Source: a virus. Taken from it: a stretch of DNA of 29,697 nt. How positions within the stretch are numbered: position 1 is the first letter of the stretch; each line of letters starts with the position of its first letter. The notes under the pieces are model-generated. The model saw only the letters and a list, made by a program, of their open reading frames with translations, searched no databases and was not told the DNA's origin. The DNA is taken from the IMG/VR virus record IMGVR_UViG_3300047564_000876, positions 1-29,697 of that record; one strand, given 5' to 3'. Of this stretch, positions 18,336 to 27,582 are shown one piece after another. A program made the position numbers and the translations under genes.

Positions 18336-18919
18336 AGTATCCATATCAGAAACTTGTATTGCCATCACTGTTGAAGGGTCAGGTGAATGGTCGATTGGAC
18401 AAGTCACTTCTGGCGCGTGTCAACACAGGTGGCAAAATGGTCAAGCCTGCAGCAGTTGCGTTCAATGCTTTGTATGAAGAAGCAAAGAAGAACGGAATCA
18501 CACTGCGCAACATTGGTGACTACCGTTCTTTTGATGGACAGTTGGCAATGTTTCTTGACCGTTATGAAGTTGCAAAACCTAATGACCCACGATTGAACAA
18601 GCCACGCACAGTGACACGCACTTTTGATGGCAAGACTTGGATTCTCAAAAAAGGAAAAGCACCATCTGCTGCACCAGACCCAACAGGGAAGCGTGGTAGC
18701 AATCATGGTTGGGGTCTTGCAATTGACTTGGCTGTTGAAGGTAAAGGTGGACAGATTGTTGCGTTGGCTTCAGCAAAGAAAGCGTTGAAGTTTATGTGTG
18801 AGACTGCACCTAAGTATGGGTTCTTTCTTCAGGGTGATAATCCAAAGTCACCTGAGTTTGAAGCGTGGCATTGGCAGTATTGCGCTGGTGATTCCACGCC
18901 ACCTGCGTTGCAGGGCTGA
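18332..18919 (+). CDS. endolysin, M15/VanY-type D-alanyl-D-alanine peptidase
   Basis: This 195-aa enzyme probably cuts peptidoglycan stem peptides or cross-bridges at lysis. It is a zinc peptidase of the M15 (VanY) group: SNHGWGLAIDL holds His125 and Asp132 as metal ligands, and FEAWHWQY provides the catalytic Glu177 and the third ligand His180. The conserved YRSFDGQL segment is also present. There is no signal peptide, so it needs the holin. The start is GTG at 18332, overlapping the holin stop. A stem-loop covers its stop codon. Confidence 0.92.
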   Translation: MKYPYQKLVLPSLLKGQVNGRLDKSLLARVNTGGKMVKPAAVAFNALYEEAKKNGITLRNIGDYRSFDGQLAMFLDRYEVAKPNDPRLNKPRTVTRTFDGKTWILKKGKAPSAAPDPTGKRGSNHGWGLAIDLAVEGKGGQIVALASAKKALKFMCETAPKYGFFLQGDNPKSPEFEAWHWQYCAGDSTPPALQG

Positions 18920-18959: not shown

Positions 18960-19002
18960 CCACCTACCTGAAACCCTTATGGGGTAAGGCTTTGGGTGAT
19001 TG

Positions 19003-19040
19003 TTGCATCTCCCCTGATAAATGGTGCTAATCTCTCAGGT
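19003..19040 (+). promoter_or_regulatory. leaderless promoter with extended -10
   Basis: TTGCAT (19003-19008) is followed 19 nt later by an extended -10, TGC plus TAATCT (19025-19033). The start codon lies 7 nt after the hexamer, so the transcript should begin at or next to the ATG. The 30 nt from 19023 to 19052 are identical to 24078-24107, and TTGCAY and CTGATAA are at the same distances upstream. Confidence 0.7.
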
Positions 19041-19406
19041 ATGGAAATCAACACCTGCTCACACAATCGCAAGCGCAACATGGCTTCATGGTGGTTCTGT
19101 CTTGACTGCAACACCCACATTGCTGATGAACCTGACACCTGTCGCAAGTGCGCAGGCAAAGGAAAGATTGGTATCTACAAGCGCACCTACATTCCTGAAC
19201 TGAAGGGTCACAAAGTTTGCACAGGTTGCAAGGGAACAGGAAAGCAGAAGCCAATCCCATGCACCGATTGTTCAGCACCATCAGTGTTCGCACCATCTTC
19301 TGCAATGGGTGCTGATGGTCAATGGCGCAATTGGAACGACACACCACATTCAGCAACGCCAATCAACCTTTGCCAATGTTGCTATGACAAGAGAGCAGCA
19401 CAGTGA
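19041..19406 (+). CDS. DnaJ-like zinc-finger protein
   Basis: This 121-aa protein carries several CxxC pairs: WFCLDCNTH (Cys22 region), CRKCAGKGKIG and CTGCKGTGKQK, which resemble the CxxCxGxG zinc-binding repeats of DnaJ, plus CTDCS and CQCCYDK. It probably folds around two zinc ions, and its partner or substrate is unknown. The frame is open to 18996, but the leaderless promoter and conserved ATGGAA start place translation at 19041. Its stop overlaps the next ATG. Confidence 0.72.
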   Translation: MEINTCSHNRKRNMASWWFCLDCNTHIADEPDTCRKCAGKGKIGIYKRTYIPELKGHKVCTGCKGTGKQKPIPCTDCSAPSVFAPSSAMGADGQWRNWNDTPHSATPINLCQCCYDKRAAQ

Positions 19407-19600
19407 TGAACACACCATTGACACACCAACTGCAATCAGGAACAGTCATCTATCTTGACCCACAGATGCAACAGCAAACAGTGCAAGGTGATTTCTACAT
19501 TCAACACAACAACATTGTGGTCTGTCGCAAGAAGCGTGGTCGCAATATGTTTGCGCTGTGTCACATTGATTCAGTGCTGGACTTCACACCAGCCGATTAG
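19406..19600 (+). CDS. small hypothetical protein
   Basis: This 64-aa protein is unrecognised. It starts MNTPLTHQLQSGTVIYLDPQ and contains beta-like segments (GDFYIQHNNIVVCRKKRG) ending FALCHIDSVLDFTPAD, so a small SH3-like or beta-barrel fold is possible. The ATG at 19406 overlaps the upstream stop by one base; an in-frame GTG at 19403 is the alternative. It is the last gene before a strong hairpin where two convergent transcripts meet. Confidence 0.65.
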   Translation: MNTPLTHQLQSGTVIYLDPQMQQQTVQGDFYIQHNNIVVCRKKRGRNMFALCHIDSVLDFTPAD

Positions 19601-19606
19601 AAAAAG

Positions 19607-19646
19607 CCCCACAGCAGGCAGGAAACCAAACAAGCCTGCTGTGGGG
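19607..19646. terminator. strong hairpin between convergent genes
   Basis: A perfect 13-bp stem, CCCCACAGCAGGC (19607-19619) and its complement (19634-19646), has a 14-nt loop. On the minus strand it is followed by a T-run (A-run at 19601-19605 on the plus strand), so it should end the leftward operon efficiently. It may also stop rightward transcripts from 19406-19600. The loop contains AGGAAACCAAA, much like the ribosome module used elsewhere in the window. Confidence 0.8.
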
Positions 19647-19652
19647 ACATCT

Positions 19653-19910
19653 TTACAGTGACCACCATTCCCTGCCCCACATGGCAGATGGGTGGCAACC
19701 AAGCCTGATAGCGATTCTGTCAGCGCGTGCATAGTGAATCGTTGAAGTACCTTCAGATGCGCGCCACTTCATAAGTGTTCCTACATTGACACCAAGTAGG
19801 TCTGCAGCATCACGCACAGGTAAGTCATGCACTACACGCAGAAGTGGTGTTGTTGATAGGCGTGCTGTCCGTTCACGCTTCCACACATCTTCAACACCAA
19901 CTTCTGCCAT
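19653..19910 (-). CDS. small helix-turn-helix DNA-binding protein
   Basis: This 85-aa protein has a helix-turn-helix-like core LPVRDAADLLGVNVGTLMKW (about residues 30-49), then RADRIAIRLGCHPSAMWGREWW. The LGxHPxxxWG motif recurs in the last complete gene of the window (29265-29612), so the two share a DNA-binding module. It is the third gene of a leftward operon, 3 nt after the XRE regulator, and ends just before the hairpin. An excisionase-like or Cro-like regulator is a reasonable guess. Confidence 0.75.
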   Translation of the reverse strand: MAEVGVEDVWKRERTARLSTTPLLRVVHDLPVRDAADLLGVNVGTLMKWRASEGTSTIHYARADRIAIRLGCHPSAMWGREWWSL

Positions 19911-19913
19911 GCG

Positions 19914-20171
19914 TCAACTTTCTGTGTGTTGCCAATACGCAATCGGCATGATGATTGAACCTTGCGTTGCACCTGTTGCTTCTTCGATTGCTGCAAGATG
20001 GTTGATTGATGGCAGGGTCTTTCCCTGTTCCCATGAACTGACCAGTGGTTGTGTCACATTGATGCGCTTTGATAGTTCACGCTGGCTGATGCCTGCTGTC
20101 ATGCGTGCAGACAACAACACTGTTGCGCATTGCTTCAACTGTTCTGCTGGTACTTCTTGTTTCTTTGGCAT
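19914..20171 (-). CDS. XRE-family transcriptional regulator
   Basis: This 85-aa protein has a classic Cro/CI-type helix-turn-helix: LLSARMTAGISQRELSKRIN then VTQPLVSSWEQGKTLPSINHLAAIEEATG (in parts, about residues 18-65). The frame is open upstream to 20375, but the ATG at 20171 with an AGGACAGGACAG ribosome site gives the normal domain boundary. It probably controls phage gene expression as a repressor or Cro-like protein. It lies between a secreted lysozyme-like gene and a small DNA-binding gene. No integrase is visible, so a role in lysogeny is unproven. Confidence 0.82.
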   Translation of the reverse strand: MPKKQEVPAEQLKQCATVLLSARMTAGISQRELSKRINVTQPLVSSWEQGKTLPSINHLAAIEEATGATQGSIIMPIAYWQHTES

Positions 20172-20196
20172 GGTTTGCTGTCCTGTCCTAGAAGGG

Positions 20197-20673
20197 TTAC
20201 TTGTTACTGATACTAGCGTTGCTTGTTGCACGCCAGTGAGAACTGCCACCGTTGTTCCAGAGATACGCAGCAACTGCGATATTGCATGAAGGCTTCTGCA
20301 AGATAAGAATGTCTGATGATTTGCAGATTGCTTTGGTGACAGTGCGCCAACTTGAATTGATTTGCAACAACCCAATGTCGTATGACTTCACAGCAGCGCA
20401 TCTGCGATATGTGTGCGCTGGTGAAAGTTTGCAATCCCTGTGCGATTTGTTCTTGTGATAGTTCCAGCCAATCGCGCGTGGCTGACATCTGGATTCACGC
20501 CACATAATCGGGGCTAGAACCCTGACAGGCAGACCAGCCTTGCGCAGTGCGTCATGCCATTCAGGGCATGGCAACCCTTTGATGGGTGCTGCGTCTGCGT
20601 CACGCAGGGAGATAGTGAGAAGTAGAAGTTGAATGATGAATGCGACAATGATGAATCGGATTGTGCGTGTCAT
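20197..20673 (-). CDS. secreted lysozyme-like / SLT transglycosylase protein
   Basis: This 158-aa protein has a signal peptide (MTRTIRFIIVAFIIQLLLLT, cleavage near DADAA about residue 29). It also has a lysozyme-fold domain with catalytic-type Glu60 in IMWRESRC, the YDIGLLQIN motif (Gly101-Asn106) and CNIAVAAYLWNNGG near the end. Six cysteines in the mature part fit an extracellular, disulfide-bonded enzyme. The ATG at 20673 has a GGAAAGG ribosome site; the longer frame to 20865 lacks signal-peptide sense. It is the first gene of the leftward operon with two regulators, separate from the main endolysin. Confidence 0.82.
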   Translation of the reverse strand: MTRTIRFIIVAFIIQLLLLTISLRDADAAPIKGLPCPEWHDALRKAGLPVRVLAPIMWRESRCQPRAIGWNYHKNKSHRDCKLSPAHTYRRCAAVKSYDIGLLQINSSWRTVTKAICKSSDILILQKPSCNIAVAAYLWNNGGSSHWRATSNASISNK

Positions 20674-20973
20674 GGTGTGTACCTTTCCTGCCACGCAGAA
20701 TGGGTGTTTCAGGGTTGCTGGCTGTCTATGTACCCATCTGTGCGTTGCGCGTGTCTGAAGCCCATACAGCGTTGCTGGTGGTGCGCTGGCAGATTGTGTA
20801 TGACCACCTGTGGTGGTTGAGTAGGGGACAGGTTCAGGTTCTACCCTAGACAGACCCTGTGCCATTTCCGTGTCACCTGTCTGAAACCCTTGTGGGGCAG
20901 GGATTTGGCAGGGTCAAAAGAAATATGCCCACAATGCGTGTGATGGGGTATCAGGTGTGCTTATAATGGGTAC
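20674..20973. promoter_or_regulatory. divergent intergenic control region
   Basis: This 300-nt gap lies between the leftward lysozyme operon and the rightward gene at 20974, and I see no convincing gene in it. It contains an operator-like palindrome ACCACC-TGT-GGTGGT (20803-20817), a CTGAAACCCTT element (20881-20891) shared with 18968-18978 and 24023-24033, and the rightward promoter TATAAT (20962-20967). The leftward promoter was not identified with confidence. Confidence 0.55.
20950..20973 (+). promoter_or_regulatory. leaderless promoter with TATAAT
   Basis: A perfect -10 TATAAT (20962-20967) lies 6 nt before the ATG at 20974. The block ATCAGGTGTGCTTATAATG is almost the same as that before 26126, with upstream AATGCG also shared. 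There is no good -35 hexamer at the usual distance. The geometry predicts a transcript starting at the ATG. Confidence 0.72.
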
Positions 20974-21246
20974 ATGGAAGAAATCACCAAGACCAGCAAT
21001 ATCAACTTCTCAGGCTCATATGGCGCATCACCAAGCATCTATGAAGTTGCCTGCATCATCACAGATGACAATGGCAATCAAGTTTCACGCAACAAGATTG
21101 CGCGCATTACAGGCACAAAGAAGTCAGGATTCACAGTCACTGTCAATGGCATGAAGTTGCACTACAAGCAAGCATCATTGGTTGAAGCAATCAACGCAGC
21201 AAAGCGTTTCTTTCTTGACAACTGCATCATTCACGCCAACTACTAA
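20974..21246 (+). CDS. hypothetical protein expressed from a leaderless promoter
   Basis: This 90-aa protein is unrecognised. The sequence has beta-like segments (ITDDNGNQVSRNKIARI, SGFTVTVNGMKLHY) and a C-terminal helix (SLVEAINAAKRFFLDNCII). It stands alone, with its own TATAAT promoter in front and a hairpin terminator behind, so it is an independently expressed accessory gene. It starts ATGGAAGAA like the other leaderless genes here. Function cannot be inferred. Confidence 0.7.
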   Translation: MEEITKTSNINFSGSYGASPSIYEVACIITDDNGNQVSRNKIARITGTKKSGFTVTVNGMKLHYKQASLVEAINAAKRFFLDNCIIHANY

Positions 21247-21263
21247 TCAACAACAACGCATCA

Positions 21264-21290
21264 GCCCCACCCTTAGTGGTGGGGCTTTTG
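21264..21290 (+). terminator. intrinsic terminator
   Basis: A perfect 8-bp stem, GCCCCACC (21264-21271) and GGTGGGGC (21278-21285), has a 6-nt loop and is followed by TTTTGTGTTT. It ends the gene at 20974-21246. The stop codon of the convergent gene lies in its loop. Confidence 0.85.
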
Positions 21291-22055
21291 TGTTTCTGTT
21301 CGACATTCACACCAGCGTGATTTGTGTTGCTGTTCAACATTGTCAAAGTCCACAATGAAACCAGCACCACCACACACCACGCAATCAACATCACCAATCA
21401 CATCTGGCATGGTGCGTTTCACCATTGCAGGCTGATTCACAATCAACTTGTTCAACTGCACATCAAGCATTGTCGAACTAGGCACACTCAACTGCATCAA
21501 CGCTGTTGTGACCTGCTGTTCAGTCCAGCCAGCCTTCAACGCACCATTGATGATTGCCAGCAGTGAATGCCACGCACCCTTGCCTGTTGGGGTCTTTCCA
21601 CCTGTGCGCTGTTTGTATGCGTTCCACCATTCATCAGCAATCGACTGCGCAGCAGTGGGTTCTTGACTTTGTTTCACACTGACTATGGTTTCTATGTCGT
21701 TTTTGTCCCTACCCCTAGTGTCGATTTTGTCGCTAGGTAGGGACAATTCTGACGCTACCTGCGCAACAGTTATCACCTGATAGTGATTGCTGGTCAGGTC
21801 ACCATTTGCACTGACACGCTGACGCTTCTTCACAGCACCAATCTCAATCAGTTCTGCCAATGCTCTATCAATCGACTTCACAGCGCAATTGCATTTCGCT
21901 GCAAGTGTCGCGCGTGATGGGTGACATTCACCTGTTTCTTTGTCTGCGTAGCGTTGCAGTGTTGCATACAGTCGAACAGCAGTTGCTGTTATGTCTGAAT
22001 ACAAGACCCATTCAGGAATGATGCTGAAGTAGTTATCTGCTGTGATGCGTCTCAA
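21273..22055 (-). CDS. replication initiator-like winged-helix protein
   Basis: This 260-aa protein has an N-terminal winged helix of the HTH_36 type (about residues 22-82: AVRLYATLQRYADKETGECH, then SRATLAAKCNCAVKSIDRAL). A linker follows, then a helical domain with GKGAWHSLLAIINGALKAGW, and a C-terminal zinc ribbon (CVVCGG and WCECR, about residues 225-251). Such proteins serve as phage replication initiators or helicase loaders. The start is TTG at 22055, supported by AGGAAG 8 nt upstream on the minus strand. The linker DNA carries iteron-like repeats, as in lambda O. The closest function is inferred. Confidence 0.68.
   Translation of the reverse strand: MRRITADNYFSIIPEWVLYSDITATAVRLYATLQRYADKETGECHPSRATLAAKCNCAVKSIDRALAELIEIGAVKKRQRVSANGDLTSNHYQVITVAQVASELSLPSDKIDTRGRDKNDIETIVSVKQSQEPTAAQSIADEWWNAYKQRTGGKTPTGKGAWHSLLAIINGALKAGWTEQQVTTALMQLSVPSSTMLDVQLNKLIVNQPAMVKRTMPDVIGDVDCVVCGGAGFIVDFDNVEQQHKSRWCECRTETQKPHH
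21695..21744. other. candidate replication origin: iteron pair plus inverted repeat
   Basis: Two 13-mers, TGTCGTTTTTGTC (21695-21707) and TGTCGATTTTGTC (21719-21731), differ by one base and start 24 bp apart. An overlapping 9-bp inverted repeat, GTCCCTACC (21705-21713) and GGTAGGGAC (21736-21744), adds structure. All lie in the linker region of the initiator-like gene, as the lambda origin lies within gene O. Origin activity is inferred. Confidence 0.45.
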
Positions 22056-22246
22056 TTGTTCTTCCTATCGTTGACATCTGTTACAACTGCCAGCGATACA
22101 ATGAACACTGGCTTGACTTCCTGTTCCCCACAAGGATTCACCAAGATAGTGCCTGTGTGCGTTCCCATGTGAGAACCATGCAGGCATTGTCATTTATCAG
22201 CAACAGTTCTCACATTGGTGACGCACCCATCTGACAAACTGCCAGC
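22056..22246. promoter_or_regulatory. divergent control region with operator-like inverted repeat
   Basis: This 191-nt gap separates the leftward initiator gene from the rightward recombination genes. It has TTGACA (22071-22076) with TACAAT (22097-22102), a promoter-like pair with a long 20-nt spacer, directed right. Further on is a perfect 10-bp inverted repeat, ATGTGAGAAC (22167-22176) and GTTCTCACAT (22206-22215), with 29 nt between arms, a likely protein-binding site. I see no convincing gene here. Confidence 0.5.
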
Positions 22247-23167
22247 ATGAAAACAATTCAGAAACCAGAACATGGAAGCCTTGAATGGCTACAAACACGA
22301 CACAAGCATGACGGACAAACAATCGTTGGTGCTTCAGAAGTGTCAGCAATCATGGGTGTGAACCCATACAAAACCATCACAGACCTAGCAATAGAGAAAT
22401 TGCAGCCACCACAGGTGCGTGACAAGAATGACGCAATGAAGCGTGGCATCTTTCTGGAACAAGGGTTGCTTGACTACGCCAGCGCAGAACTTGGTTGCAC
22501 AATAATCACGCCAGCAGAAATGTATTTGAACGGAAGAATCATCAGCACACTTGATGGTGTCACTAATCAGGCATCACGATTGTTTGAAGCCAAAACCACC
22601 ACAGGCTGGATTCAGGGTGACGCACCACTACCTGAATGGTATTGGCAAGCACAAGCACAGATGTTCTGCACAGGCTGCATTACAGTCACATTCATTGTTC
22701 TTGACCGTCAACTGCGCATCACCATGTTTGACATTGAACGCAATGATGATGACATTGCAATCATGGTTCAACAGGTTGAAGCGTTCTGCACAGCGATTGA
22801 CAATGAATCCTTGCCTGATGACAGCCCATTGACAGCAGAACAGGTCACAGCACTGCACCCACAACCAGATGCAGGTGAGATTGAACTAGGCGCAGCAGGG
22901 CTGGAACTATTACAACGCTGGCAATCAGCAAAAGAAATGCTGAAGCATTATGAGAAAGAAGAACAAGACCTGAAAGACGCGCTTGCCAATCTGCTGCGCA
23001 ACCATGACGCAGGCACGATTGATGGTCACAAGGTTGTCACATTCAAATCACAGAACACGACACGCTTTGACAGCAAAGCATTTGGTGAAGCGCACCCTGA
23101 CCTGTTGAAGCAGTATCAGAAAGCGTCATCATTCAGAGTGTTGCGCACAGTAAAGGGTGCAATCTGA
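22247..23167 (+). CDS. YqaJ-like viral recombinase exonuclease
   Basis: This 306-aa protein is a PD-(D/E)XK exonuclease of the lambda-exo/YqaJ type that resects double-strand ends for recombination and replication. Evidence is the GASEVSAIMGVNPYKTITDL motif (residues 28-47), RGIFLEQGLL (Glu71), STLDGV with Asp103, FEAKTT with Glu114 and Lys116, and YWQAQAQMFCTG (Gln134-136). The C-terminal helical part is extra to the minimal domain. It ends one base into the ERF gene start, so the pair is coupled. Confidence 0.92.
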   Translation: MKTIQKPEHGSLEWLQTRHKHDGQTIVGASEVSAIMGVNPYKTITDLAIEKLQPPQVRDKNDAMKRGIFLEQGLLDYASAELGCTIITPAEMYLNGRIISTLDGVTNQASRLFEAKTTTGWIQGDAPLPEWYWQAQAQMFCTGCITVTFIVLDRQLRITMFDIERNDDDIAIMVQQVEAFCTAIDNESLPDDSPLTAEQVTALHPQPDAGEIELGAAGLELLQRWQSAKEMLKHYEKEEQDLKDALANLLRNHDAGTIDGHKVVTFKSQNTTRFDSKAFGEAHPDLLKQYQKASSFRVLRTVKGAI

Positions 23168-23889
23168 TGTCTGAGATATTCAAAGCATTGAATGAAGTGA
23201 TGAAAGAAGTTGGTGCTGTTCGCAAGAATGAACGCAACACACATCAGAACTTCAATTTCAGGGGCATTGATTCAGTCATCAATGCTGTATCACCAGCGTT
23301 CAGGAAGCATGGCATCTTCTGCACACCATCAGTCATCAGTAGTGAATATGAATCTGTGCAGGTTGGGCAGAACAGAACAGTGATGGGTCATGCGCGTGTG
23401 ATGGTGACATACACATTCCACGCAACAGATGGAACATCAGTGGCTGCAACTGTAAGTGCAGAATCAATGGATAGTGGCGATAAAGCAACAGCCAAAGCAA
23501 TGAGTGTTGCCTATCGCACAGCGTTGTTGCAGACATTGTGCCTGCCAACAGATGACGCAGACCCTGATTCAGATACCTATGAACGCTCACCAGTCACTGC
23601 ACAAGAACGCAAAGAAGAAACAGTGCGCACCACACGCGCAGCACAAACAAACAACAACACTAATCAACAACGCAAATCACCATTGCGCAGTGACGCACAA
23701 GCAAACCTGATGCGCTCACTTCTTGAACAATGTGAAGTTGATGAACAACTTGTGATTGATTCATTCAAAGTGCGCATTGATGACGCAACAGTGCCACAAG
23801 CAAAAACAATCATTGATGCGTTGCTGCGTTTGAAGAAGAATGAAATTGAAATTGAAATCAACGCAGATGGCACACCAATCATTCGCTGA
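23167..23889 (+). CDS. erf: ERF-family single-strand annealing protein
   Basis: This 240-aa protein anneals complementary single strands during recombination. The N-terminal domain matches the ERF superfamily: FKALNEVMKEVGAVRKNERN, FNFRGIDSVINAVSPAFRKH, and the KATAKAMSVAYRTALLQTLC segment (about residues 100-125). A polar low-complexity linker (TNNNTNQQRK) separates it from a C-terminal domain of helices. It overlaps the YqaJ stop by one base. Exonuclease plus annealing protein is a Red-like pair. Confidence 0.92.
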   Translation: MSEIFKALNEVMKEVGAVRKNERNTHQNFNFRGIDSVINAVSPAFRKHGIFCTPSVISSEYESVQVGQNRTVMGHARVMVTYTFHATDGTSVAATVSAESMDSGDKATAKAMSVAYRTALLQTLCLPTDDADPDSDTYERSPVTAQERKEETVRTTRAAQTNNNTNQQRKSPLRSDAQANLMRSLLEQCEVDEQLVIDSFKVRIDDATVPQAKTIIDALLRLKKNEIEIEINADGTPIIR

Positions 23890-24055
23890 TGGCGACTTGT
23901 TCAAGGTTGCTAATCAGCGTGGTGTGTTTGTGTTCAGGGGCTGGAATCCTGATGGGTCTGTCAGGTGTTTTGGTGGGACTAGGGGCAGGGAGAGATGGCG
24001 CAGTTTCCCTGTGTCGGCAGGGCTGAAACCCTTACGCCATAAGGGTTCTAGGTAA
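23867..24055 (+). CDS. small conserved actinophage-type protein
   Basis: This 62-aa protein contains DLFKVANQRGVFVFRGWNPD then GSVRCFGGTRGRERWRSFPV. Small beta-rich proteins with an RGxFxFRGxNPDGSVxxxGG and WRSF pattern are common in actinophages, with unknown function. The ATG at 23867 overlaps the ERF end by 23 nt; TTG at 23897 is the alternative. Its 3-prime end forms a hairpin (AACCCTT, 24027-24033, with AAGGGTT, 24041-24047) that may end the operon. Confidence 0.65.
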   Translation: MAHQSFADGDLFKVANQRGVFVFRGWNPDGSVRCFGGTRGRERWRSFPVSAGLKPLRHKGSR

Positions 24056-24057
24056 TG

Positions 24058-24095
24058 TTGCACTACTGCTGATAACAGGTGCTAATCTCTCAGGT
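24058..24095 (+). promoter_or_regulatory. leaderless promoter, second copy of the 19003 module
   Basis: TTGCAC (24058-24063), CTGATAA (24069-24075) and the extended -10 TGC plus TAATCT (24080-24088) are at the same distances as in the module at 19003-19040. The ATG at 24096 lies 7 nt after the hexamer. The 30 nt from 24078 are identical to those from 19023 and include the first four codons. Confidence 0.72.
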
Positions 24096-24467
24096 ATGGA
24101 AATCAACCACAGCCAACTAGCCACCAACGCAATCACTGTTGAATGCGTCAAGACCCAACGCGAAAACCATTTCGCACCAGCAGTTGTAGCCAAATACAAC
24201 CAATCCAATGTTCAGCATGATTGGCACATCAGCATTGTGCGCATCAATGGCGTTGAAGCATCTGAATGGTTCACATCACTTGGATTGCCTGCTGACATTC
24301 TGCGTATCCCTACTTGTCCATTCAAGACCAAGAAAAGCGCAGCAGCAGAAATGGCTGAAGCATTGACAAGAGTTCTTGACATTGCTGCACCAGAGTGGGA
24401 TTGGCAAGATGAAACAGATTGCCCTGAATACTTTGCTGTAATCGCAGCACTAAAGAACAACCAATAA
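24096..24467 (+). CDS. hypothetical protein
   Basis: This 123-aa protein is unrecognised. It contains a beta-like stretch (NAITVECVKTQRENHFAPAV, then HDWHISIVRINGVEASEWF) and a C-terminal helix (AAAEMAEALTRVLDIA) with an acidic end (EWDWQDETDC). It starts MEIN, the same first residues as the zinc-finger gene at 19041, because the duplicated promoter module includes the start codon. After those four residues the two proteins are unrelated. Confidence 0.7.
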   Translation: MEINHSQLATNAITVECVKTQRENHFAPAVVAKYNQSNVQHDWHISIVRINGVEASEWFTSLGLPADILRIPTCPFKTKKSAAAEMAEALTRVLDIAAPEWDWQDETDCPEYFAVIAALKNNQ

Positions 24468-24497
24468 CCAACAACAATCAACAAAGGAAACCAAGCC

Positions 24498-25007
24498 ATG
24501 AAAAAGTCAGAAATTGAAACAATCATCACAGCCACACCAGAAGCAATATTCACAGAGAATGTCAAGTACGCAGTGCGCAACTTCATCATTGTGGGATTTG
24601 AGCAGGTCAAGAAGAACGCATACACAGCACCTGTCACTGTTGCGCTAGTCAAAGATGTCTGGTGTTCAGCATCAACAATGGAACTGCACATCAGTGACAA
24701 TGTGCGCAAGCAGCCACTGCGCAACATCATTGCTACCAATTCATCATCACCACAGGCTTTCAAAGCGTTGCAGATTGCAAAAGCAGAACGCAAAGCAGCA
24801 GCCAGCGAGAAGCGCAAGCAACAACAAGAACTGATGAATGACATCAAGCCTGAACTGAAACAAGCATTGAAGGCTTGTGGCGTGGACAATCTGCAACACA
24901 ACTTTGGGACAATGGACACCACATTCAAGATTGAAGTGAACTTGGACAACGCAGAACAACTGTTGAAGGTTCTGCAAGCATTCGCAGCACAGCAGGTCAC
25001 AGCATGA
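24498..25007 (+). CDS. hypothetical protein with central coiled coil
   Basis: This 169-aa protein is unrecognised. The N-terminal part is mixed alpha/beta (NVKYAVRNFIIVGFEQVKKN, VTVALVKDVWC). A charged coiled-coil stretch (about residues 92-120, IAKAERKAAASEKRKQQQEL) and a C-terminal helix ending LLKVLQAFAAQQ follow. The start has the AAAGGAAACCAA module (24483-24494), shared with two other early genes. It overlaps the next gene by 4 nt. Confidence 0.72.
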   Translation: MKKSEIETIITATPEAIFTENVKYAVRNFIIVGFEQVKKNAYTAPVTVALVKDVWCSASTMELHISDNVRKQPLRNIIATNSSSPQAFKALQIAKAERKAAASEKRKQQQELMNDIKPELKQALKACGVDNLQHNFGTMDTTFKIEVNLDNAEQLLKVLQAFAAQQVTA

Positions 25008-25501
25008 GTGACCAGCCAGACCTGTTCAGCATTACTGATGATGATGCACTGCCATACAACGGAACAGCAGGTCATGTTGACCAGCCAGCCAGCACAGAAC
25101 GCGCACAGACTGAAGCCGATTCAGGAACAGCCAAAGCAAGAGCATCAGCAGTGCTGAAACTTCTGTATGAACACCCAATCGGGCTGACCTATCAGCAGGT
25201 AGGCAAGAATCTGAATCTGCATCATGGACAATCATCAGGTGCGCTTTCAACACTGCACAAAGCAGGTTTGGTGTTCTTGACTTTTGAACGCAGAAACAAA
25301 TGTCAGGTTTATGTTCATGCTGCATATCGTGACCGATACAAACCACATGAACGCATTGACACACCTGCACAAACCAAAGCAGGCAAACGCAAAGATGACA
25401 TGGAACGATTACTGCAAGCAATCATCATTGGTATCGAAATGGGCAGGGTGCGTGACAGCACTGTTGAAGCGATTGTGAAAGAACTACGCAACACTGACTG
25501 A
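25004..25501 (+). CDS. winged-helix DNA-binding protein
   Basis: This 165-aa protein has an N-terminal motif LPYNGTAGHV common in actinobacterial and actinophage regulators. A winged-helix domain follows (about residues 45-110: ASAVLKLLYEHPIGLTYQQV, then LNLHHGQSSGALSTLHKAGL and VYVHAAYRD). The GQxSGALSxLHKAGxV pattern marks the recognition helix and wing. It is likely a transcriptional regulator of the early operon. It overlaps the previous gene by ATGA. Confidence 0.8.
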   Translation: MSDQPDLFSITDDDALPYNGTAGHVDQPASTERAQTEADSGTAKARASAVLKLLYEHPIGLTYQQVGKNLNLHHGQSSGALSTLHKAGLVFLTFERRNKCQVYVHAAYRDRYKPHERIDTPAQTKAGKRKDDMERLLQAIIIGIEMGRVRDSTVEAIVKELRNTD

Positions 25502-25514
25502 TACCATCAGCCAT

Positions 25515-25970
25515 GTGACAGCAGAAGAACAACCAGCCAGAAAAGGTGACTGCCCATGTGGGTGTGGCTTGTTTGGCAACATCACCAATCAGCGTCATGT
25601 GCGTGGTTGTGTATGTAATCGTTGCAGGGGTGCGCGCAATCGGCGCAAGGGTCTTTCAAAGCAGCGCACAGCACGCAAGCAACTTGGTGTTGCACCATCA
25701 CACAAGTTTGGTGATGGCAATGAAGAACGCTGGCAATCAATGTTCGCCAATGAAGTCAAAGCAGGAAAACAGATACAGCCTGCTGTGACAGCGTGGTTGC
25801 GAATTGAACAGCAAGTGCTGTCAAACAATCCCGATTTTGGTGGCAGACACAAACCCACCAGAGCAGTCTTGATGCCTGATGGCTGGTCTGATGGTCTGGT
25901 GATGGTGCGTCTGTCTGTGTGGGCTGAAGTGATTGCGCCAGCCTTGGAAGCCTTCTATGGGGAAGCCTGA
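25515..25970 (+). CDS. zinc-binding protein, possible PD-(D/E)XK resolvase/nuclease
   Basis: This 151-aa protein has an N-terminal cysteine-rich region (CPCGCG, then RGCVCNRCRGARNRRKG) that should bind zinc. It then has a conserved-looking core FGDGNEERW and EVKAGKQ (Glu-Val-Lys). The D/E plus ExK arrangement is like PD-(D/E)XK nucleases such as Holliday junction resolvases. The position after recombination genes supports this, but it is not proven. The C-terminal MPDGWSDGLVMVRLSVW is conserved in related actinophage proteins I recall. The start is GTG at 25515. Confidence 0.62.
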   Translation: MTAEEQPARKGDCPCGCGLFGNITNQRHVRGCVCNRCRGARNRRKGLSKQRTARKQLGVAPSHKFGDGNEERWQSMFANEVKAGKQIQPAVTAWLRIEQQVLSNNPDFGGRHKPTRAVLMPDGWSDGLVMVRLSVWAEVIAPALEAFYGEA

Positions 25971-25982
25971 CAGCCTGTCAGA

Positions 25983-26010
25983 GCGCACAGGAAGCCCTGT
26001 GCGCGTTTCT
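25983..26010 (+). terminator. intrinsic terminator-like hairpin
   Basis: A perfect 9-bp stem, GCGCACAGG (25983-25991) and CCTGTGCGC (25996-26004), has a tight AAGC loop and is followed by GTTTCT. It lies 12 nt after the previous stop and should end that transcript. Three copies of AGGGGCTGG follow (26011, 26021, 26060). Confidence 0.72.
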
Positions 26011-26101
26011 AGGGGCTGGCAGGGGCTGGACTAGCCCAAGCCCTATCAGCAAGCCTTGTAGGGGCTGGAAAAAAATCTGCCCCAAATGCGCATGGTGGGT
26101 C

Positions 26102-26125
26102 ATCAGATGTGCTTATAATGTCTGT
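26102..26125 (+). promoter_or_regulatory. leaderless promoter with TATAAT, second copy
   Basis: A perfect -10 TATAAT (26114-26119) lies 6 nt before the ATG at 26126. ATCAGATGTGCTTATAATG differs by one base from the same block at 20950. No strong -35 hexamer is present at the usual distance. Confidence 0.75.
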
Positions 26126-26407
26126 ATGGAAACCAACAGAAACCAACGCATCTTGACAGAAGCACAAATCAAGGTGCTGCGTGCGCTTTACACTGCTTGC
26201 AACAATCGTCTGCTTGTCAAAATCGACACACGCACAATTGCTGAATACGCAAACACCAACACACTTGCAGCACACAAGGTTCTTGAATCACTTTCAAAGT
26301 TTGGCTATGTGCGTCATCACCTGATTAGCAACGCTTCAACCAGTGGTGGTGCATACAAGTCTGGCTGGTCACTCAGTGGAACAGGAAGAATGAAGGCTGC
26401 ACAATGA
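26126..26407 (+). CDS. winged-helix DNA-binding protein, small
   Basis: This 93-aa protein has a predicted winged helix: LTEAQIKVLRALYTACNNRL, then RTIAEYANTNTLAAHKVLES and LSKFGYVRHHL (about residues 9-70). The spacing fits a MarR/DnaD-like domain with a wing near residues 65-85. It is expressed from a leaderless promoter. It overlaps the next gene by 4 nt, so it leads a three-gene unit to 26768. A regulator is likely, target unknown. Confidence 0.72.
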   Translation: METNRNQRILTEAQIKVLRALYTACNNRLLVKIDTRTIAEYANTNTLAAHKVLESLSKFGYVRHHLISNASTSGGAYKSGWSLSGTGRMKAAQ

Positions 26408-26580
26408 AGAAGAATCAATGCGTTCATTGTGGGCAGATGCTGAAGAAAGCACCAGCAGATGCTGAATACTGCTGGATTGGCAAGACAGATAATCAGGGCT
26501 ACTGCTACGCAGGCGCAACTGAAGTCAATGGTGTGCTGGTCAGCGAACAGGAACACTGCACAGAAAGCGAAATGGGCTGA
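26404..26580 (+). CDS. small zinc-ribbon protein
   Basis: This 58-aa protein begins MKKNQCVHCGQML, with a CxxC pair at residues 6-9, and has four more cysteines (AEYCWIG, QGYCYAG, EEHC-like EQEHC) that could complete a zinc site. It is linked by ATGA to the upstream regulator and by TGATG to the following gene. No enzymatic motif is seen. Function is unknown. Confidence 0.65.
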   Translation: MKKNQCVHCGQMLKKAPADAEYCWIGKTDNQGYCYAGATEVNGVLVSEQEHCTESEMG

Positions 26581-26768
26581 TGCGCAAGCCACACACCCCA
26601 ATCAACCAACTGATTCTTGACACCAAAGACCTGTCACAGTTTCCAATCACGCGCGTGGCGCAGGGCTGGCAGGTCACTGACCTGCGTGATGGGCAGGTGC
26701 GCATCTTCAAGACCAAGCGCGCTGCACAGGTGGCTGTGTGTGCTGTTGTCAGGTGGGCAATGCAATGA
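26580..26768 (+). CDS. small hypothetical protein
   Basis: This 62-aa protein (MRKPHTPINQLILDTKDLSQ start) has a beta-like segment VAQGWQVTDLRDGQVRIF and a C-terminal helix TKRAAQVAVCAVVRWAM. The layout suggests a compact beta-alpha fold. It overlaps the zinc-ribbon gene by one base and is the last of that unit, ending 38 nt before the next leaderless gene. I do not recognise it. Confidence 0.62.
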   Translation: MRKPHTPINQLILDTKDLSQFPITRVAQGWQVTDLRDGQVRIFKTKRAAQVAVCAVVRWAMQ

Positions 26769-26779
26769 CTTCACAAACC

Positions 26780-26806
26780 ATCAGCACCTGTGATACAGTC
26801 GCAGGT
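26780..26806 (+). promoter_or_regulatory. leaderless promoter, TGATACAGT type
   Basis: An extended -10, TGA plus TACAGT (26791-26799), lies 7 nt before the ATG at 26807. The 17-mer ATCAGCACCTGTGATAC (26780-26796) is repeated exactly at 27337-27353 in front of the gene at 27364. Confidence 0.65.
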
Positions 26807-27040
26807 ATGGAAACCACCTACACCCACATCACATCAAAAGTTGAACTTGCCGATTGCCCTGATGACGGTGGCAAGTGGGCTATCTACTGCACACACTTTG
26901 CTGATGGCGAGATTGTCGGCACAGGTGTTGTGCAGGACACCAACAAGAAGCGTCTTGCATCATGGCAGAAGCACAGCATTGATTGGTGCTGTCACTGTCA
27001 AAATGTGCGCGACTATGGCACACCAGAAGAACAGTTCTGA
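26807..27040 (+). CDS. small hypothetical protein (leaderless)
   Basis: This 77-aa protein starts METTYTHITSKVELADCPDD and contains WAIYCTHFADGEIVGTGVV and a C-terminal CCHCQNVRDYG. The cysteine cluster could bind a metal. The frame is open upstream, but the promoter geometry and ATGGAA start place translation at 26807. It is unrecognised and independently expressed. Confidence 0.62.
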   Translation: METTYTHITSKVELADCPDDGGKWAIYCTHFADGEIVGTGVVQDTNKKRLASWQKHSIDWCCHCQNVRDYGTPEEQF

Positions 27041-27073
27041 CACACCCATCAACTAACAAAGGAAACCAAACCA

Positions 27074-27313
27074 ATGAAAACCAACAAGCCAACATCAATC
27101 AACTACAAGACCCAATATCAGATGATGCGTCTTGCTGAAACACTGATGCCAATGATGCCAGAACGCATCATTGACAAGTTCAGCGCAGTGGTGACACCAC
27201 GCATGGAACAAGCAGAAGAATCAGCACACATGATGCACACAGACCGATTTGACATGATTGTTGATTGGGGCTGCACAGCACAACGCATCATCAGCAAGAA
27301 AGTCAGCAAGTGA
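27074..27313 (+). CDS. small hypothetical protein
   Basis: This 79-aa protein is largely helical and methionine-rich (YQMMRLAETLMPMMPERIID, then MEQAEESAHMMHTDRFDMIV) and ends AQRIISKKVSK. It has the AAAGGAAACCAA ribosome module at 27058-27069. It is unrecognised. The stop is 50 nt before the next leaderless start, and the next promoter lies in that gap. Confidence 0.62.
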   Translation: MKTNKPTSINYKTQYQMMRLAETLMPMMPERIIDKFSAVVTPRMEQAEESAHMMHTDRFDMIVDWGCTAQRIISKKVSK

Positions 27314-27336
27314 TGAAGAAGCCATGCGCCAACCAC

Positions 27337-27363
27337 ATCAGCACCTGTGATACGATTCCTGAT
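27337..27363 (+). promoter_or_regulatory. leaderless promoter, TGATACGAT type
   Basis: An extended -10, TGA plus TACGAT (27348-27356), lies 7 nt before the ATG at 27364. It shares the 17-mer ATCAGCACCTGTGATAC (27337-27353) with the promoter at 26780. Confidence 0.65.
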
Positions 27364-27582
27364 ATGGAAACCAACTACATCAAAGTCACAGAGATGACAC
27401 CAGCACTTGCAGACATTGTTGAACTTGTCTGGGAAGGCTGGTGGTCAGATGAAGAACGCATTGACTGGTACGCATTCCTAGACAAAGTTGAATCGTTTGG
27501 TTTTGACTTAGGCAGCGACATGGAAGCACCAATCATCAAAGCAATCAAGAAGCAGGTCAAACACCTGCGCAACAGCAACTGA
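27364..27582 (+). CDS. small acidic hypothetical protein (leaderless)
   Basis: This 72-aa protein starts METNYIKVTEMTPALADIVE and has a tryptophan-rich acidic middle (VWEGWWSDEERIDWYAFLDK), then AIKKQVKHLR. The frame is open to 27265, which would overlap the upstream gene, but the conserved promoter and ATGGAA start argue for 27364. Small acidic proteins in early regions often bind host proteins or mimic DNA, but nothing specific is recognisable. Confidence 0.62.
   Translation: METNYIKVTEMTPALADIVELVWEGWWSDEERIDWYAFLDKVESFGFDLGSDMEAPIIKAIKKQVKHLRNSN

Follow-up and report, generated by a model that had tools for sequence, protein, structure and literature searches.

Promoter-start cassettes with exchangeable small open reading frames as probable leaderless expression sites in an uncultured siphovirus-like phage

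The window analysed here is the whole of a 29,697-base stretch, IMG/VR virus record IMGVR_UViG_3300047564_000876, and the element in question is a promoter-start cassette, in which a −10 box lies 6–7 nt before the ATG of a small accessory gene, the cargo. The gene order is siphovirus-like, with terminase, portal, capsid, tail and lysis genes followed by a right arm; structural gene names besides terminase were assigned by position and sequence, and only some by search. The right arm carries two minus-strand helix-turn-helix (HTH) genes, a minus-strand replication-type gene, an exonuclease/Erf annealase pair and many small genes.

Results

All six cassettes of the window lie to the right of the lysis genes, that is, in the non-structural arm. 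They occupy sites defined by neighbouring core genes: A follows the lysin, B lies between the repressor and the replication gene, C follows erf, D follows an HNH-like gene, E lies around the next small core genes, and F occurs in two genomes. The features of these sites, with each cargo open reading frame (ORF) and two Shine–Dalgarno (SD) leaders, are as follows.

18971–18994, plus strand: site A hairpin, terminator-like, just 5′ of the promoter (AACCCTTA-TGGGG-TAAGG)
19028–19040, plus strand: site A −10 box TAATCT, TG-extended, 7-nt spacer; promoter 83–90% identical in relatives G001 and G007 before different ORFs
19041–19406, plus strand: site A cargo ORF MEINTCSHNRK..., zinc-ribbon-like CXXCXGXG (Pfam DnaJ_CXXCXGXG, E=2e-6, below cut-off)
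20883–20906, plus strand: site B hairpin-like repeat with a weak stem, upstream of the promoter (hairpin survey)
20962–20973, plus strand: site B −10 box TATAAT, 6-nt spacer; upstream 60 nt 97% identical to G002, which has another ORF there
20974–21246, plus strand: site B cargo ORF MEEITKTSN..., no confident Pfam or PHROG match found
24027–24047, plus strand: site C 8-bp hairpin AACCCTTACGCCATAAGGGTT (site C alignment, hairpin survey)
24083–24095, plus strand: site C −10 box TAATCT, 7-nt spacer; promoter common to G002 and G007 before other ORFs
24096–24467, plus strand: site C cargo ORF MEINHSQLA..., a site with nine unrelated families in nine genomes, window included
24480–24497, plus strand: SD leader AACAAAGGAAACCAAGCC of the gene after the site C cargo, putative 3′ exchange boundary; near-identical in G001 and G002 after different cargo stops
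26114–26125, plus strand: site D −10 box TATAAT, 6-nt spacer; 95% identical to G001 before another ORF
26126–26407, plus strand: site D cargo ORF METNRNQRI..., weak winged-helix resemblance (Pfam, below cut-off)
26794–26806, plus strand: site E −10 box TACAGT, 7-nt spacer (pattern scan)
26807–27040, plus strand: site E cargo ORF METTYTHIT..., homologs in G001 and G004 behind other promoters, with start MNTHT in G004
27058–27073, plus strand: SD leader AAAGGAAACCAAACCA after the site E cargo (downstream-boundary comparison)
27351–27363, plus strand: site F −10 box TACGAT, 7-nt spacer (pattern scan)
27364–27582, plus strand: site F cargo ORF METNYIKVT..., same gene in G002

The initial annotation had described a TANNNT box 6–7 nt before an ATGGAA start at these genes, and this is true of all six. 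TAATCT with 7 nt precedes ATGGAA at 19041 and 24096, TATAAT with 6 nt does so at 20974 and 26126, and TACAGT (26807) and TACGAT (27364), both with 7 nt, likewise lead into ATGGAA; the first T of TANNNT lies 12 or 13 nt before the start in every case, as in TA-led leaderless genes. The −10 extension (TGC or TGA right before the box) reported for four genes is correct, and both TATAAT boxes have TG one base further out. Identical blocks of 30, about 18 and 17 nt had been given for three promoter pairs; the first figure stands and the middle one is slightly generous, the longest exact blocks being 30 nt (19041/24096), 13 nt (20974/26126, about 19 nt with one mismatch) and 18 nt (26807/27364). Sites A and C of the window (18968–24107) have CTCAGGTATGGAAATCAAC in common and relatives differ at both sites, which suggests a recent between-site copy; the 30-nt block may reflect one such event in the window lineage.

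Counted against shuffled sequence, as had been proposed, TANNNT-N7-ATGGA occurs 5 times in the window versus 0.47 (one of the five, at 18534, is intragenic) and TANNNT-N6-ATGGAA 2 times versus 0.19, and a reversed-pattern control in the window gave 0 matches. In these phages 5.0% of codons are GAA; a chance run of six in six would have a probability of about 1.5e-8 if the starts were independent, but they are not. The sites were not found as a class by a sigma-70 scan because their −35 elements match poorly; of 29 non-redundant promoters, 20 have a TTG-type −35 element versus 12% expected.

Relatives were gathered through the exonuclease (the first 12, at 61–100% identity) and then by alignment search, with two more near-complete ones first supplied by a promoter pattern scan; ten were read over the whole contig. 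Across the window and ten relatives, the pattern is not equally frequent away from gene starts: TG-TANNNT at 6–7 nt precedes 33 of 391 gene-caller starts versus 40 of 10378 other ATGs (p=1.3e-28), a test that replaced an earlier start-versus-interior comparison which had taken in pattern-chosen starts. A set of 43 cassettes was selected on the 6–7 nt spacing, with five members removed and four added by eye. None of these has an SD match of at least 4 nt, versus 32% of other starts. Their codons 2–6 are 88% A+C versus 63% in others, with no difference at codons 13–17, and the first 40 nt fold at −0.99 versus −4.34 kcal/mol. CA repeats after the start and low structure are reported to favour leaderless translation (PMC9031893), and the A/C-rich, open starts of the cassettes match these features.

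The spacing was also scanned with wider limits. When 2–14 nt were allowed from GTGCTTATAAT to ATGGAAAC, a viral collection gave 14 matches, some of them related or near-identical contigs, with 11 at exactly 6 nt. The cassette pattern with 4–9 nt allowed gave 10 scattered matches in bacterial genomes with no spacing preference, and the only one at 6 nt fell on a 5.9-kb contig that seems unrelated. Scanning with a −10 weight matrix, in which the ATG was not used, found 63 sites of at least 12 bits versus 1.7 in shuffles, the strongest almost all 6 nt before an ORF; out of sample, all 9 new cassettes in contigs outside the training set have 6 nt (4–9 allowed). Four tests not built on the spacing (the collection scan, the weight matrix, the gene-caller starts and the out-of-sample set) thus point the same way. 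The leaderless promoter design proposed in the initial annotation is well supported by the −10 spacing, the lack of SD matches and the spacing peak in relatives and in the out-of-sample set, and leaderless expression is the reading that fits best.

Two cargo-free arrangements were seen among the relatives. In G009 (about 23380–23445, L041, site C) and G008 (about 157–220, L047) the promoter runs straight into an SD-led core gene, and near the expected transcription start the leader there contains ATCAGG-N5/6-CCTGA, an inverted repeat that may be an operator. Apparently outside the window's group, L021, L022 and L027 have TATAAT-N6-ATGGAAACGAAACC before a 69-aa ORF, a possible further leaderless start with the same second codon.

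GAA after the ATG had been taken for a downstream signal. This did not hold up, for relatives with the same promoter use other second codons (GAA 28, AAC 11, ACA 3 and AAA 1 among the 43 cassettes). A sister clade (G004, G005, G006 and G008) has the same promoter followed mostly by ATG-AAC-ACA-AAC-ACA, and the site A promoters of G001 and G007 are 92% identical, yet one ORF begins ATGACA and the other ATGGAA. GAA is thus not required and is a lineage feature of the cassette. Conservation extends into the −35/−10 spacer (ATCA) and codons 1–5, and the general property is an A/C-rich, unstructured stretch to about +16, beyond which conservation drops.

Three genes were found both with and without the shared start. 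M-ETNT-TSRKHNTLLPRT in L051 and M-TSRKHNTLLPRT in G001 are 79% identical over 131 residues behind differing promoters. Two copies of one gene in G006 begin MNTNT-IKRMKAGN behind a cassette and M-ITIKRIKAGN within an operon, and a third gene begins METNT-KKTTKRSK behind a cassette and MNTTKQAKRSK, SD-led, in L051. Because the same genes occur either way, we take the METNT/MNTNT start to be a detachable tag, whose codons travel with the promoter.

Behind the cassettes, the cargo is diverse and short. The 43 cassettes fall into 33 protein families (BLASTP with the first eight residues removed), with a median cargo length of 81 aa, and lie mainly at five sites, F being the sixth. Site A holds five families in five genomes, four relatives having unrelated ORFs in place of the window cargo; at site C each of nine genomes has its own family (the G007 member is truncated). 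When all 43 cargo proteins were scanned against Pfam and PHROG, hardly any received a function. An unusually acidic cargo, like many anti-CRISPR proteins, was considered and is not supported (median pI 6.8 versus 6.8 for other small genes).

The promoters follow the sites. Within the clade G000/G001/G002/G007, median promoter identity is 0.82 at the same site before different genes versus 0.58 at different sites, and when site labels were shuffled within genomes the observed mean was reached in 1 of 5000 trials. Cassettes within one genome are no more alike (0.563) than those at different sites of different genomes (0.548). Alignments at sites A–D run at near-identity to the start codon, give or take a few codons, and then into unrelated sequence; at sites A and C homology returns right after the stop codon, with 92–98% identity over 60 nt for three pairs. 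The reverse case also occurs, families 0, 1, 3 and 7 each being the same gene behind different promoters. The initial annotation had the phage multiplying promoter-start cassettes in front of unrelated genes; the genes are indeed unrelated, but multiplication is not what the relatives suggest, as promoters mostly stay and ORFs change. On these alignments, then, the promoters keep to about five fixed positions between core genes, and it is the ORFs that are exchanged.

Conserved sequence at both ends of the exchanged segment was found, but not at every site: every cassette has it at the 5′ joint, and about half have it after the stop as well. GGAAACCA occurs within 60 nt after 23 of 51 cargo stops versus 6 of 386 other genes. 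Of the 46 occurrences of the 9-mer GGAAACCAA in these genomes, 14 are cassette codons 1–4 and 15 lie in SD leaders; together with GGAAACCA after cargo stops, this means that many cargo ORFs are bracketed by a short direct repeat. In the window, GGAAACCAA is found at 24486–24494 and 27061–27069 in SD leaders (AAAGGAAACCAA) and also at the leaderless starts 26126 and 27364.

Upstream of the promoter, about 12 of 30 non-redundant cassettes have a AAACCCTT...AAGGNTTT hairpin ending 47–51 nt before the ATG, with others further upstream; stems of at least 7 bp occur in 20% of cassettes versus 2.5% of random segments. The hairpin could insulate the site from upstream transcription. These upstream hairpins lack a U-tract (T run) and several stems are weak, and an intrinsic terminator is not shown by them.

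Two neighbouring minus-strand HTH genes occupy 19653–20171, one HTH_23-like and one XRE/Cro-type; the latter, an XRE/Cro/CI-type repressor gene at 19914–20171, is flanked by sites A and B. The window has no recognised integrase, and Rfam and tRNA scans of it were empty. A candidate recombination machinery lies just upstream of site C:

23167–23889, plus strand: Erf-like single-strand annealing protein (PHROG match), adjoining a YqaJ/RecE-like exonuclease at 22247–23167 (E=1e-37 and 3e-64 for the pair)

By large terminase, the best cultured match is Pontimonas phage phiPsal1 (38% identity), which has a Microbacteriaceae host, and an actinobacterial host is therefore likely. The cassette is absent from phiPsal1, cultured phages gave no DNA resembling the site C or site D promoters, and a prophage and host search of bacterial genomes with the exonuclease alignment gave no match. 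One 8.3-kb relative, L046 (G007, IMGVR_UViG_3300020044_009288), has its exonuclease/erf module on the opposite strand to the lysin, unlike all other relatives, with a site C cargo truncated to 44 aa; this layout would be either an inversion or a misassembly.

Discussion

We consider leaderless expression sites with exchangeable ORFs to be the best explanation of these cassettes, and a probable one. Each site would be an extended −10 promoter of the sigma-A type, often with a hairpin just upstream, whose ATG follows 6–7 nt past the −10 box. Given the promoter–ATG spacing and the missing SD sequences, both read directly from the sequence, transcription would start at the start codon and yield an mRNA without a leader. 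The first 3–5 codons (ATG GAA ACC AAC ACC, or ATG AAC ACA AAC ACA in the sister clade) would be part of the cassette and not of the gene, in keeping with the observed tag that comes and goes, and would keep the 5′ end of the mRNA rich in A and C and open, in line with its low computed structure, for ribosomes to load and for leaderless translation. With promoter and start signal combined in a single compact block, any ORF would need only to be joined at the ATG, or just past it, to be transcribed and translated at once.

The observed exchange at fixed sites would then consist of small ORFs being swapped almost exactly from start to stop codon while the block stays at about five places. Where homology stops suggests homologous crossover at the boundaries, and exchange would probably proceed via flank homology, with the promoter and ATG on the 5′ side and often the AAAGGAAACCAA leader on the 3′ side; the Erf-like annealase of the phage perhaps performs it. 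The cargo would have an accessory role in interaction with the host. A tentative extension is that these are docking sites for gene exchange, in which the tag and the GGAAACCAA-containing leader double as expression signals and as crossover homology for the phage annealase; foreign ORFs would then be captured with exact ends and be expressed immediately. Since AT-GGAAACCAAC and AAA-GGAAACCAA contain the same 9-mer, leaderless starts may derive from captured SD leaders.

Several points weigh against leaderless exchange sites. Leaderless expression in these uncultured phages is an inference from sequence. The p-values are optimistic, since the 43-cassette set was spacing-selected and hand-edited and the cassettes are mutually related. 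Another in-frame start codon lies within 60 nt upstream in 34 of the 43, and the cassette promoter can precede an SD-led gene, as at about 23380 in G009, which means that leaderless use is not obligatory. At sites B and D the downstream joint is unclean, and exchange was not seen at site F.

The alternative that survives best, although we think it doubtful, is ordinary mosaicism, with actinobacterial-type leaderless promoters copied by descent, and with gene-boundary joints that random illegitimate recombination, followed by selection, has left behind. In its favour, Actinobacteria commonly have leaderless TANNNT genes (PMC3160421), but random joints would not account well for boundaries conserved 5′ of every cassette and after about half of the stops, nor for joints that often fall a few codons inside the ORF and fuse the shared tag in frame. 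Slightly less likely still, the block from about −25 (ATCAG) to +16 could be an operator bound by a phage regulator, the XRE repressor for instance; the shared first codons would then be conserved as a binding site in DNA or RNA, with leaderless translation a side effect. The presence of a Cro/CI-type repressor gene between sites A and B and the conservation of the ATCA spacer beyond ordinary promoter need, reaching codons 1–5, would fit an operator; however, codon 2 is GAA or AAC by clade and the third base of codon 3 varies (ACA/ACC/ACG), which is unusual for a strict binding site, the −10-to-ATG spacer is variable, and a clear palindrome across the block was not found.

It is very improbable that the mRNAs begin further upstream with leaders and that the −10-like box beside the ATG arose by chance or marks a second promoter: the upstream in-frame starts would permit this, but SD matches are absent from all 43 cassettes, the 6-nt peak is sharp in independent scans, and protein-level similarity among relatives begins at the cassette ATG. 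Least probable of all is a functional METNT/MNTNT peptide (for targeting, stability or processing) under protein-level selection, for although third-base variation in codon 3 keeps threonine, the tag sits on many unrelated families and homologs of one and the same protein lack it, the second residue is Glu or Asn depending on the clade, and MTST or MKKQ takes the place of the tag in some cassettes.

If leaderless sites with exchangeable ORFs are the correct account, they would explain concretely how a phage gains an immediately working gene, in that the joint can sit at the ATG because a leaderless start needs neither a leader nor a ribosome-binding site. The promoter blocks could then serve to locate the hypervariable accessory genes that uncultured phages carry, and many of these genes may act on the host. 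There are also natural pairs for testing the role of the first codons in leaderless translation: one gene in tagged and untagged form, and one promoter followed by GAA, AAC or ACA at codon 2. Fixed promoter-start sites with swapped small genes suggest a simple way for phages to try new genes.

In the open-licence literature we found no account of a leaderless promoter-start block that sits at fixed exchange sites and carries a detachable coding tag. In archaeal viruses such as SIRV2, a conserved early promoter precedes diverse anti-defence genes (excerpts of PMC11065993), and the present cassettes resemble these in that a conserved block is repeated in one genome before small, diverse and mostly unrelated accessory genes. 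The archaeal promoters differ in being of the TATA/BRE type, with early expression and anti-defence activity tested for some genes; those excerpts describe neither a tag at a leaderless start nor exchange at fixed sites that is exact to the ORF. Start-Associated Sequences (SAS/ESAS) of cluster K mycobacteriophages, and similar repeats in Microbacterium phages of clusters EC, EF and EG, likewise occur at the starts of non-structural right-arm genes of different families in phages of Actinobacteria (PMC3203893, PMC7302621). An SAS, however, is an SD-containing 13-mer in the leader, 3–7 nt before the start, and such an element was not found here; the cassette is a promoter, has no SD sequence and runs into the coding sequence.

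Leaderless genes with an adjoining −10 box are common in Actinobacteria and Deinococcus-Thermus (PMC3160421, PMC12340547). The cassettes share with these TA-led genes a TANNNT about 12 nt before the start and a short or absent leader, but TA-led genes are scattered cellular genes, whereas here near-identical blocks are reused at fixed phage sites with exchangeable ORFs. In E. coli, CA repeats downstream of the start are reported to enhance translation of leaderless mRNA (Martin-Farmer and Janssen 1999, as cited in PMC9031893), an effect measured on individual mRNAs, whereas the start segment described here is natural, shared and detachable. Finally, the proposal that short conserved boundary sequences underlie phage mosaicism is an old one, but at most boundaries none can be identified (introduction of PMC3029335). 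Like morons and boundary sequences as presented there, the cassettes are autonomous expression units between core genes for which homologous exchange at short boundaries can be proposed. A moron has its own promoter and terminator and is lacking at that place in a relative; the cassettes have their own promoter, with the hairpin upstream and not downstream, and at site C of G009 the promoter stands without cargo before the SD-led core gene. Unlike in morons as that text presents them, the expression signals would remain with the site and only the ORF would move.

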